Below are positions 41,243 through 45,054 of a stretch of DNA of 54,849 nucleotides, piece by piece. Where the stretch lies: positions 1 through 54,849 of the forward strand of contig JAHEDG010000017.1 in NCBI GenBank assembly GCA_024641335.1, given 5' to 3'. Below the pieces are notes generated by a model. It was not told the DNA's origin, searched no databases, and saw nothing but the letters and a program-made list of their open reading frames with translations. The position numbers and the translations under genes are program-made. The stretch is from Candidatus Zixiibacteriota bacterium (GTDB taxonomy: Bacteria; Zixibacteria; MSB-5A5; UBA10806). Each line of letters opens with the position of its first letter. Positions within the stretch are counted from its first letter, which is position 1.

Positions 41243-44116
41243 ATGCCGCCAAAAAAAGCCAAGAAAAGTCCGGCGAAAAAGGGCGCCACCAGCAAAACCG
41301 CTAAAGTAAAGAAAATCAGGAAAGCTCCATCGGCAACAACGGCAGACAAACCTGCCAAAAAGGCAGGAAAAAGGAAGGTAATGACTAAGGTAGCTACCCA
41401 ATCAGTTGCCAAAACAAGGAAAGCCGCCGTCAAGGCCGAACCGGCAGTCGGTAAAATGGTGTATTATTTTGGGGACGGTAAGGCAGACGGCAACGGAAAC
41501 ATGAAAGACTTGCTCGGAGGTAAAGGATCGGGACTGGCGGAAATGACTAATACCGGCGTGCCTGTTCCTCCGGGATTCACTATAACGACCGACGCCTGCA
41601 GGCTTTTCTATGAAAACGGTATGAAGATTCCCAAGAAGACAGAGGAAGAGATAGTCAATCATATCGGCAAACTCGAGAAATCGACCGGAATGCGGTTCGG
41701 AGATAAAACCAATCCTCTTCTGGTATCGGTCAGATCCGGCGCGAAATATTCGATGCCCGGTATGATGGATACTATTCTAAATCTCGGCTTAAACGACGAG
41801 ACTTTGGCAGGATTGATTAAGAAAACCGAAAACGACAGATTCGCCTACGATTCTTATCGGCGTTTCATCCAGATGTTCGGCAATGTCGTTCTGGGAATAG
41901 ACAAATCGCAATTCGAAGATATTCTGGAGACCCGAAAGAAGAAGCAGCGAATCAAGCTCGATACTGAACTGACAGTGGAGGATTTGAAATATATCATCAA
42001 GAAATACAAGGCGCTTATCAGCGAAAAATCGGGCGAGGAGTTTCCTCAGGATCCGATGGAACAGTTGATTAACGCCAGGGACGCTGTATTCAAATCATGG
42101 AATAATCCTCGGGCCATAACCTATCGACATCTGAATAATATCCCGTCGGATCTGGGAACAGCGGTCAATGTTCAGGCGATGGTATTCGGCAACATGGGGG
42201 AGACATCGGCTACGGGTGTAGGCTTCACCAGAAATCCATCCACCGGCGAAAAGGAATTTTATGGTGAGTATTTGACCAACGCTCAAGGGGAGGATGTGGT
42301 GGCCGGTATCCGGACGCCCAAGCATATTTCCAACCTGGCCAAGGAAATGCCCAAGGTATACAAGCAGCTCAGAGATATAACCCAGAAACTGGAAAAACAT
42401 TATCGGGACGTTCAGGATTTCGAGTTCACTATTCAGGAAGGCAAGCTTTACCTTCTTCAGACCAGGAGCGGAAAAAGAACAACAGCCTCGGCGGTAAAGA
42501 TCGCCGTAGATATGGTCAAGGAGGGTTTGATTAACAAGAAAGAAGCCCTGATGAGAATCGAACCGACCCAGCTCGATCAGCTTTTGCACCCGATGATTGA
42601 TCCGTCGGCCAATGTCAATATTTTATCGAAAGGTCTGGCCGCGTCACCCGGCGCCGCCAGCGGTATGGCGGTATTTACCGCCGATGACGCGGTCCGTTTC
42701 GCTGAGGCCGGCAACAAGGTGATTCTGGTCAGGCATGAGACGAATCCTGACGATATCCACGGAATGAACGCCGCCGAGGGAATATTAACATCGCGCGGAG
42801 GTATGACTTCGCACGCGGCAGTCGTCGCCAGGGGGATGGGAAAATGCTGCGTGGCCGGCGCCGAGGATATCAAGGTATACGAAGTCGACAAGAAAATGAT
42901 CATAGGGGGAACTGTAGTCAAGGAAGGTGACGCGATCACTCTTAACGGCAGCACTGGTGAAGTAATGGCCGGACAGGTGGCGACCATCGCTCCGACTCTA
43001 TCGGGAGAATTCGCGGTTTTCATGAAATGGGCTGACGAGGTTCGGCGCTTGAAAATTCGCACCAACGCCGATACTCCTGCGGATGCCGCTCAGGCTTTGG
43101 AATTCGGAGCCGAGGGTATCGGCCTTTGCCGTACCGAACATATGTTTTTCGCGCCCGAGAGAATTCCCATTGTTCAGGAGATGATCCTGGCCACCGACGA
43201 GATCGCCAGAAGAGAAGCATTGGACAAACTGATGCCGTTCCAGAAAAATGATTTCAAGGGAATTTTCGAGGTAATGGACGGCAGACCGGTGACTATCCGC
43301 ACGATCGATCCGCCGCTGCATGAATTCCTGCCGGACAAGAATGTGATAATCGAGGAAATCGCCAAGTTGAAATCGCGCGAGGTCTGGGAAGACGAGATAA
43401 AGGCCAGGGAGAGGATATTGGCCAGGATCGATGAACTCAAGGAATTCAATCCGATGCTGGGACATCGCGGATGCCGGCTGGGTATCACTTATCCGGAGAT
43501 AACCGAGATGCAGGCCAGGGCGATATTCACCGCCGCCTGCGAGGTAGCTCGAGGACGAAAGGCCAAAGCCCCGGTAGTGGAGATCATGATTCCGCTCGTC
43601 GGAAGCCTAAACGAACTCCGTCATCAGAAGGAAGTGGTAATCAGGGTGGCCGAAGAGGTCATGAAAAAGCAGAAGGTCGAGGTTCAGTATCTTATCGGCA
43701 CTATGATCGAGGTTCCCCGCGGAGCCATTACCGCCGATGAAATAGCCACGGAAGCGGAGTTTTTCAGCTTTGGAACAAATGATCTGACCCAGATGACCTA
43801 TGGTTTTTCCCGTGACGATTCGGGCAAATTTCTGAAAGTATATCTTGATAAGGGTATTCTGGAAAAAGATCCATTTGTTACCCTGGATACGACCGGTGTC
43901 GGATACTTGATAACCATAGCCGCTGAAAAAGGGAAGAAAACCCGTTCCGATCTAAAAGTCGGTATCTGCGGCGAGCATGGCGGCGATCCCGATTCAATAC
44001 ATTTCTGCCATTCGATCGGGCTGGATTATGTATCCGCCTCTCCTTTCAGAATACCGATTGCCCGGCTGGCGGCGGCCCAGGCCGCTCTCGGCAAGAGCGA
44101 TTATACTCAAAAATAA
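41243..44116 (+). CDS. ppdK: Pyruvate phosphate dikinase with histone-like N-terminal tail
   Basis: This 957-residue enzyme interconverts pyruvate, ATP and phosphate with phosphoenolpyruvate, AMP and pyrophosphate. Residues 1-70 are a Lys/Ala-rich tail (MPPKKAKKSPAKKGATSK...) unlike normal PPDK. From residue 71 the enzyme is complete and of usual length: nucleotide-binding domain (GGKGSGLAEMTN), the phosphohistidine domain with GGMTSHAAVVARGMGKCCV and the PEP-binding barrel with GICGEHGGDPDSIHFC. The start is supported by AAGGAG. The tail looks like those of histone H1-like proteins; its role is unknown. A strong terminator follows. Confidence 0.94.
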   Translation: MPPKKAKKSPAKKGATSKTAKVKKIRKAPSATTADKPAKKAGKRKVMTKVATQSVAKTRKAAVKAEPAVGKMVYYFGDGKADGNGNMKDLLGGKGSGLAEMTNTGVPVPPGFTITTDACRLFYENGMKIPKKTEEEIVNHIGKLEKSTGMRFGDKTNPLLVSVRSGAKYSMPGMMDTILNLGLNDETLAGLIKKTENDRFAYDSYRRFIQMFGNVVLGIDKSQFEDILETRKKKQRIKLDTELTVEDLKYIIKKYKALISEKSGEEFPQDPMEQLINARDAVFKSWNNPRAITYRHLNNIPSDLGTAVNVQAMVFGNMGETSATGVGFTRNPSTGEKEFYGEYLTNAQGEDVVAGIRTPKHISNLAKEMPKVYKQLRDITQKLEKHYRDVQDFEFTIQEGKLYLLQTRSGKRTTASAVKIAVDMVKEGLINKKEALMRIEPTQLDQLLHPMIDPSANVNILSKGLAASPGAASGMAVFTADDAVRFAEAGNKVILVRHETNPDDIHGMNAAEGILTSRGGMTSHAAVVARGMGKCCVAGAEDIKVYEVDKKMIIGGTVVKEGDAITLNGSTGEVMAGQVATIAPTLSGEFAVFMKWADEVRRLKIRTNADTPADAAQALEFGAEGIGLCRTEHMFFAPERIPIVQEMILATDEIARREALDKLMPFQKNDFKGIFEVMDGRPVTIRTIDPPLHEFLPDKNVIIEEIAKLKSREVWEDEIKARERILARIDELKEFNPMLGHRGCRLGITYPEITEMQARAIFTAACEVARGRKAKAPVVEIMIPLVGSLNELRHQKEVVIRVAEEVMKKQKVEVQYLIGTMIEVPRGAITADEIATEAEFFSFGTNDLTQMTYGFSRDDSGKFLKVYLDKGILEKDPFVTLDTTGVGYLITIAAEKGKKTRSDLKVGICGEHGGDPDSIHFCHSIGLDYVSASPFRIPIARLAAAQAALGKSDYTQK

Positions 44117-44127
44117 GTGTGTCTGCT

Positions 44128-44152
44128 GGGGCGGCATCGGCCGCCCCTTTTT
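44128..44152 (+). terminator. Rho-independent terminator of ppdK
   Basis: GGGGCGGC (44128-44135) pairs with GCCGCCCC (44140-44147) around ATCG, followed by TTTTTC. It starts 12 bases after the ppdK stop. Confidence 0.88.
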
Positions 44153-44323
44153 CTTATTGTATTTTTATCCGCATCGATATTCCCATATATAATACCGATA
44201 TTTCCGCACGGCATCGCGGCGGATGTACGGTTTATTATTAATACTGGCTGGTTTCGAAATACAAACGGCCGTTCTATAATTTTATATTCGGATCCATTTT
44301 GTCGAACAAAAATTAAATGGGGG

Positions 44324-44353
44324 TTGACATTTTCCGGCTGATTTTCGTATTTT
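44324..44353 (+). promoter_or_regulatory. Predicted promoter of the AT-hook gene
   Basis: TTGACA (44324-44329), an 18-base spacer and TATTTT (44348-44353). The start codon is about 105 bases further, so the message has a long leader. Confidence 0.6.
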
Positions 44354-44373
44354 GATATCAGGAAGGTGTGGGA

Positions 44374-44434
44374 TTGGGCTTAAGACCCAACGATTTACCG
44401 AAGCAAATCGTGAGACGTTGGCAGTGAGAACGTC
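44374..44434 (+). ncRNA. Structured leader of three consecutive hairpins
   Basis: Three hairpins follow each other almost without gaps: TTGGG/CCCAA (44374-44390), CGATTT/AAATCG (44391-44410) and GACGTT/AACGTC (44414-44434). They lie within the predicted leader, directly after the promoter and 26 bases before the start codon of the AT-hook gene. A cis-acting RNA that controls translation or stability is possible. No known riboswitch class was recognised. Confidence 0.45.
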
Positions 44435-44459
44435 GCAGTCTTAGAGAAAGAAGGTGAAC

Positions 44460-44945
44460 ATGGGAAAAAGTATCAGCGAGATCGCTAAACAGGCGGAAAG
44501 AGCTGTCGCGGGGATCAAGGACAGAGAGCTTCGTAAAGAAGCGTTCAGAATCCTGTTACTACAATCCCTGGCCGGCGGAAGTATATCCTCAGGCGAACCG
44601 GCCGCAGGCCCGAGACGCGGTCCCGGCCGTCCTCCGCTAAAACGCGGGCCGGGTCGTCCCCCGTTGACAGGAACCCGGAAGGCCGGTAAGAAGAAAGCCG
44701 CCAAACGTCCCGGAAGAGCCGGTGGCGGAGTAGTAACAACCGGGCTCAACAAGCTGCTCGCGGCCGGGTATTTCAAAGCCCCCAAAGATGCCGCCACTTC
44801 GTTTAATGAGTTCAGGAAACGGCGCATCGATATCGAACCGTCGCAGCTTCGCATGGAGCTTTTGCGCTTCGTCCGTCAGGGAAAATTAAAAAGACGGATT
44901 AAAATGAAGGGCAGAAAGGTTACATACCTTTACAGTGTCAGGTAG
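44460..44945 (+). CDS. AT-hook DNA-binding protein
   Basis: This 161-residue basic protein has a short helical N-terminus (about 1-40), then two AT-hook cores GPGRPPL (54-60 and 63-69) and a Lys/Arg-rich linker (72-90). The C-terminal domain (about 92-160) looks like a winged helix (KLLAAGYFKAPKDA, SQLRMELLRFVRQGKLKRR). I chose the ATG at 44460 with GAAGG upstream; a GTG two codons earlier is possible. It may be a nucleoid-associated or global regulator. Two tandem AT-hooks joined to a possible winged helix are unusual in bacteria. Confidence 0.8.
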   Translation: MGKSISEIAKQAERAVAGIKDRELRKEAFRILLLQSLAGGSISSGEPAAGPRRGPGRPPLKRGPGRPPLTGTRKAGKKKAAKRPGRAGGGVVTTGLNKLLAAGYFKAPKDAATSFNEFRKRRIDIEPSQLRMELLRFVRQGKLKRRIKMKGRKVTYLYSVR

Positions 44946-45054
44946 CCAATCAGATCGTGGGGACAAGATTCCATTGTTCCCGCGATATATTTTTAGGCGC
45001 ATCCATCGACAGCATTCAAAGTCTGATCTATAAAATATTAATTTCAGCGTTTGT

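Follow-up and report, generated by a model that had tools for sequence, protein, structure and literature searches.

In the 54,849-nucleotide stretch of a Candidatus Zixiibacteriota contig analysed here (the window), our favoured reading, held with reasonable though limited confidence, is that a single-gene unit encodes a nucleoid- or silencer-type DNA-binding protein confined to this lineage, and that three short hairpins proposed for its leader are chance features. According to this model, a conserved sigma-70 promoter would direct transcription through a leader of roughly 100 nt and the protein gene to a terminator. Within the protein, the N-terminal helices would probably mediate multimerisation, the basic linker would provide a non-specific grip on DNA, and the C-terminal winged helix may itself bind DNA. 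Features of the locus are collected in Table 1.

Table 1. Predicted features of the locus, in window coordinates.
Feature	Positions	Strand	Basis or remark
Likely intrinsic terminator of the upstream pyruvate phosphate dikinase gene	44128..44147	+	8-pair G+C stem, T run
Sigma-70-type promoter, TTGACA-18-TATTTT	44324..44353	+	Promoter scan; TTGACA kept in 5/5 family genomes
Inverted repeat 1, TTGGG/CCCAA, 5 bp, loop 7	44374..44390	+	Pair probability 0.13-0.18
Inverted repeat 2, ACGATTT/AAATCGT, 7 bp, loop 8	44390..44411	+	Pair probability ~0.01
Inverted repeat 3, GACGTT/AACGTC, 6 bp, loop 9	44414..44434	+	Pair probability ~0.01
Shine-Dalgarno-like GAAGGTG	44450..44456	+	Read directly
Gene, 161-aa basic DNA-binding protein candidate	44460..44945	+	Open frame; relatives in 5/5 family genomes
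Conserved helical N-terminal region, residues 1-40	44460..44579	+	Helices 5-16 and 22-37; proposed oligomerisation part
Two GPGRPP AT-hook-like motifs in basic linker, residues 52-69	44613..44666	+	Read directly
C-terminal winged-helix domain, residues 87-161	44718..44942	+	AlphaFold2 model
Likely intrinsic terminator 3' of the 161-aa gene	44954..44986	+	13-pair stem, T run

The first-pass annotation had placed a good promoter ahead of the gene, and this was borne out by comparison with relatives: TTGACA is similarly placed in all four, lying 136 nt from the start codon in the window's genome (G000) and 134, 134, 168 and 131 nt from it in G001, G003, G002 and G004, respectively, with a TA-rich hexamer at a spacing of 17-18 nt in the family genomes. 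The promoter call was made because of this conservation, the scan by itself being no evidence; it found 2 promoter sites against 1.2 expected in shuffled sequence, and 3 terminator-like sites between 44100 and 45060 against 1.6, counts only slightly above those of the shuffles. Judging from the promoter's position, transcription would start near 44360, leaving a leader of about 100 nt before the ATG at 44460. A GGAAGG comparable to the Shine-Dalgarno-like element of the window is similarly placed in G001 and G003. Since terminator-like sites lie on both flanks, the gene is probably transcribed as a unit of its own.

The neighbouring upstream gene (41243-44116, + strand), identified by Pfam as a pyruvate phosphate dikinase, was also inspected. 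Its product begins with about 70 Lys/Ala-rich residues resembling a histone H1 tail, PPDK_N starting only at residue 89, and the same kind of tail is present on the dikinases of G001 (L032 757-1800) and G003 (L033 741-1700), hence in 3 out of 3 genomes examined. In the window, in G001 (L002) and in G003 (L003), the dikinase gene immediately precedes the 161-aa gene; other genes, their kinds judged by eye, occupy this place in G002 and G004. The adjacency of a tailed metabolic enzyme to a basic DNA-binding protein candidate is an oddity of the locus.

The open frame, closed by a stop at 44943-44945, encodes, in agreement with the first-pass annotation, a basic protein; it has 161 residues and a positively charged linker and C-terminal part. 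The same charge distribution holds in all five family members (N-terminal part +3 to +4, linker +7 to +29, C-terminal part +15 to +18). The winged-helix-like end proposed earlier was likewise recovered: an AlphaFold2 model of the C-terminal 75 residues, based on an alignment that combined the five family members with a single distant domain of L011, has a mean pLDDT of 91.2 and the element order H-H-H-E-E. When this model was compared with the PDB by VIA, matches reached a Z of 11.6 (rmsd 1.7, 70 residues aligned), and the top fold matches among those listed were winged-helix regulators of the Fur, Zur and PadR types; such structural matches would indicate fold, not function. The best Foldseek E value for the same model was 0.0076, with none at or below 0.001. 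The full-length protein was modelled poorly (pLDDT 60.7), the N-terminal region scoring 79-90 by blocks of ten residues, and comparison of the whole-protein model returned 12 chains (best Z 3.1) that matched the N-terminal helices only and are uninformative.

No Pfam family exceeded its cut-off in the window's protein. Candidates below that level were set aside: a PaaX-like match (E 0.16, or 0.017 for the C-terminal piece), a weak match to Bcr-Abl_Oligo (E 0.16), DUF6465 (E 0.0067, in one of the five members), and four NCBIfam enzyme models (E 0.015-0.72) found in one or two of the five members and not in the window's.

Between the two terminal regions, the linker varies in both length and kind. 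It spans 43 residues in the window, 40 in G001, 54 in G003, 38 in G002 and 29 in G004, and consists of GPGRPP repeats in the window, Lys-Ala-rich repeats in G001 and G003, and less regular basic stretches in G002 and G004; a closing PGR(A/R)GGG is kept in all five. The two AT-hooks of the first-pass annotation are thus present as GPGRPP motifs in the window's species and there alone, the AT-hook-like GRP motif being absent from all four relatives (1/5 members). The double AT-hook belongs to this one species and not to the protein family. The Pfam AT-hook model listed nothing up to E 10 in residues 48-87, although a model so short is easily missed.

All five family genomes examined, among them the window's own, contain full-length relatives, whereas the 127 other genomes searched in the phylum have none. 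Counting any match raises this to 6 of 132 genomes, the sixth being a weak match in G103 to profile positions 71-144 of 159, covering the linker and C-terminal part (E 6.8e-4). A pattern-limited scan of genome contigs returned 4 loci, assigned to Zixiibacteriota or Zixibacteria and apparently the same four relatives, and none of 42 pattern matches in viral contigs was a relative. As the window's genome also contains two matches to HU, the 161-aa protein would not be its sole nucleoid protein. To our knowledge, nucleoid proteins other than HU have not been described for these bacteria, and a limited literature search on nucleoid-associated proteins of Zixibacteria found nothing.

Three consecutive hairpins had been said to fill the leader. 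The corresponding inverted repeats are indeed present in the letters and occupy part of the leader, base 44390 being common to stems 1 and 2, such that stem 2 retains 6 pairs if repeat 1 forms. Counting perfect stems of at least 5 pairs with loops of 3-10 nt, dinucleotide shuffles of the 100-nt leader contained at least three hairpins in 7 of 3000 cases and at least 17 pairs in 3 of 3000. A cruder count, since superseded, in which each stem entered in its longest form alone, gave 2 hairpins and 13 pairs (194/5000 and 17/5000 shuffles). Across the whole window, the same threshold is reached at 4 places (first tiles 6631, 28611, 29371 and 44341), and 40 shuffled windows contained a mean of 4.95 such places (sd 2.07), with at least 4 in 30 of the 40 and at least 1 in all 40. 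The rarity calculated for the leader is outweighed because the first-pass annotation drew on the whole window, where such trios are expected; the three hairpins are therefore probably chance inverted repeats. A short frame noticed by eye in the leader, GTG-TGG-GAT-TGG-GCT-TAA, was not clearly matched in the relatives on visual inspection and was dropped.

One rival reading, which we regard as very improbable, takes the leader as a cis-regulatory RNA of the window's genus, in which three hairpins and a possible loop-to-tail pseudoknot, noted on visual inspection, would control translation of the encoded protein, perhaps through binding by that protein. The rarity of the trio among shuffles of the leader itself (7/3000) speaks for such an element, whereas its expected frequency over the window, thermodynamics and comparison all speak against it. 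The three-hairpin structure has a free energy of -15.0 kcal/mol compared with a minimum of -21.9, so that an alternative fold is preferred by 6.9 kcal/mol, and the leader is hardly more stable than its shuffles (MFE z -0.68 over 100 nt and -0.81 over 109 nt). Searches of Rfam yielded no match up to E 10 in a sensitive search of 44280-44520, and none over the whole window at gathering scores. Among the four relatives, none has three such hairpins in the 100 nt preceding its start codon (G001, 1; G003, G002 and G004, 0 each), in a count that omits longer loops and part of the G002 leader, which exceeds 100 nt.

Leader alignments provide a further comparison. Against the leaders of G001 and G003, the window's leader gives alignment scores that 0/200 and 3/200 shuffles match, respectively, and against those of G002 and G004 it scores no better than shuffles (90/200 and 147/200 score as high); a search of the five family genomes with the leader DNA gave, after the leader itself, a next best match of E 0.3. 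In the three-leader alignment, 68.6% of stem cells are paired and 5 of 17 pairs are changed on both sides, each value being reached by 2/500 shuffles and six slid versions giving 28.6-51.0% and 2 pairs each. This pair count is favourable under both controls, the shuffles and the slides, but it includes the window's own row, the source of the stems. Restricted to the two alignable relatives, pairing falls at 8/17 and 10/17, or 18/34 cells, which 9.5% and 10.3% of random placements reach, and slid partners give 18/34 (+3) and 21/34 (-6). Compensatory changes at the stems, proposed as a check on the hairpins, do occur, with both sides changed relative to the window's row in 7/34 cells; however, among draws of other possible stems of the same leader, 34% pair as well and 15% equal this number of double changes, in a comparison of three alignable leaders that has weak power. 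In these few sequences, the stems are not kept in relatives beyond chance. A consensus fold of the three leaders by RNAalifold (-3.22 kcal/mol) contains 9 pairs, 2 of them changed on both sides, and none belonging to the three stems. A structured leader is accordingly not upheld: it is neither the preferred fold nor kept in relatives, and it is expected by chance over the window. Leader lengths that are alike in 4 of the 5 family genomes are a point in favour of the RNA reading. Together with the identity of G001 and G003 at 68 of 98 aligned leader positions, they would allow for a leader function of some kind.

Another possibility is autoregulation at the level of DNA, in which an inverted repeat that closely follows the transcription start would be a candidate operator of the winged-helix protein or of another repressor; we judge this unlikely. 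The occurrence of PadR and Fur regulators among the winged-helix matches is compatible with it, as is the presence of this repeat after the promoter in 3 of 5 leaders, from genera g2 and g3, as GTAT-N8-TGATACA in G001 and G003 and as GTAT-N13-TGATACA in G002. Counted genome-wide on both strands, GTAT-N8..14-TGATACA occurs 7, 19 and 7 times in G001, G003 and G002, against 4, 3 and 8 for a reversed control, so that an excess is seen in G003 and not clearly in the other two. Further, two of the three carriers belong to one genus. Because the motif was picked after the three leaders had been viewed, and the leaders of the window and of G004 do not contain it, we treat the element as a lead only.

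Two other features of the relatives' leaders were recorded. In L002 and L003, GTAT-N10-ATAC lies roughly 47-75 nt past the beginning of TTGACA, with overlapping repeats, CTGA/TCAG in one and TTGA/TCAA in the other; in these repeats the two species, which share a genus, differ by one compensatory change. The G004 leader (L005:1997-2030, minus strand) forms a long hairpin, ACCGGG...CCCGGT, directly after the promoter, unlike the other leaders, with a fold z of -2.46.

The nature of the protein itself also admits alternatives. That it is a conventional transcription factor, recognising specific sequences and carrying a basic linker, and not a nucleoid protein, seems to us rather unlikely. The best structural matches among those listed belong to the Fur, Zur and PadR families, which are specific regulators and not silencers, a point that counts against our main reading, and the PaaX-like match of the C-terminal piece points the same way from below the cut-off. 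Winged helices have many functions, however, and a basic, fast-varying linker would better fit a non-specific DNA binder. On computational grounds we thus rank a nucleoid or silencer role as likeliest, ahead of a specific regulator. A more elaborate proposal, of a family-restricted bridging and silencing protein that arose independently by joining a winged helix to a histone-H1-like or AT-hook tail switching type between genera, autoregulated through a conserved promoter-proximal leader, appears quite improbable.

Of itself, the leader would not matter. The relatives considered here are known from metagenome-assembled genomes, and the family is little studied. The first-pass annotation regarded an autoregulated nucleoid protein with a structured leader as unusual for bacteria, which is doubtful given that autorepression of hns is known and that the cspA leader is structured; our literature search on autoregulated nucleoid proteins with hairpin leaders found nothing specific among the papers listed.

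Among known systems, the N-terminal part of H-NS, MvaT and Lsr2 is acidic, unlike that of the window's family, where its charge is +3 to +4 in all five members. These proteins are described as comprising an N-terminal oligomerisation part, a flexible basic linker and a C-terminal DNA-binding part (PMC6936261), a general three-part plan that the window's protein would share, and an asymmetrical charge is also described for them. They bind DNA with AT-hook-like or AT-pincer motifs (PMC6936261, PMC6212790), in place of which the window's protein has a predicted winged helix. Within the phylum, a comparison can be made with the small winged-helix-like proteins of L011 in G103, the second of which (116 aa) aligns with the family's C-terminal domain over 51 columns (hhalign probability 94.7); the L011 proteins differ at the N-terminus and have no long basic linker like that of the window's protein. 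That locus (L011:1062-2166) encodes three such proteins side by side (114, 116 and 131 aa), of which the 114- and 116-aa ones are related to each other (30% identity, E 5.5e-10) and none has a Pfam family above cut-off.

The layout is like that of Rok, the xenogeneic silencer of Bacillus subtilis, which is described as having an N-terminal region, some 45 residues long, that is conserved, a less conserved middle and a C-terminal winged helix (PMC6212790), and thus resembles the arrangement of N-terminal helices, variable linker and winged helix seen here. The linker of Rok is described as a neutral Q linker (PMC6936261), in contrast to the basic linker of the window's protein. A profile search confined to PDB chains gave no sequence link to Rok up to E 10, and the absence of Rok from the 50 fold matches listed proves nothing. 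Given this lack of a sequence link and the different linker charge, we suggest that the protein would work like Rok, not that it is a Rok. The non-acidic N-terminal part counts against our main reading. Should the protein prove to be a Rok-like silencer, it would represent a further independent origin of the Rok architecture.
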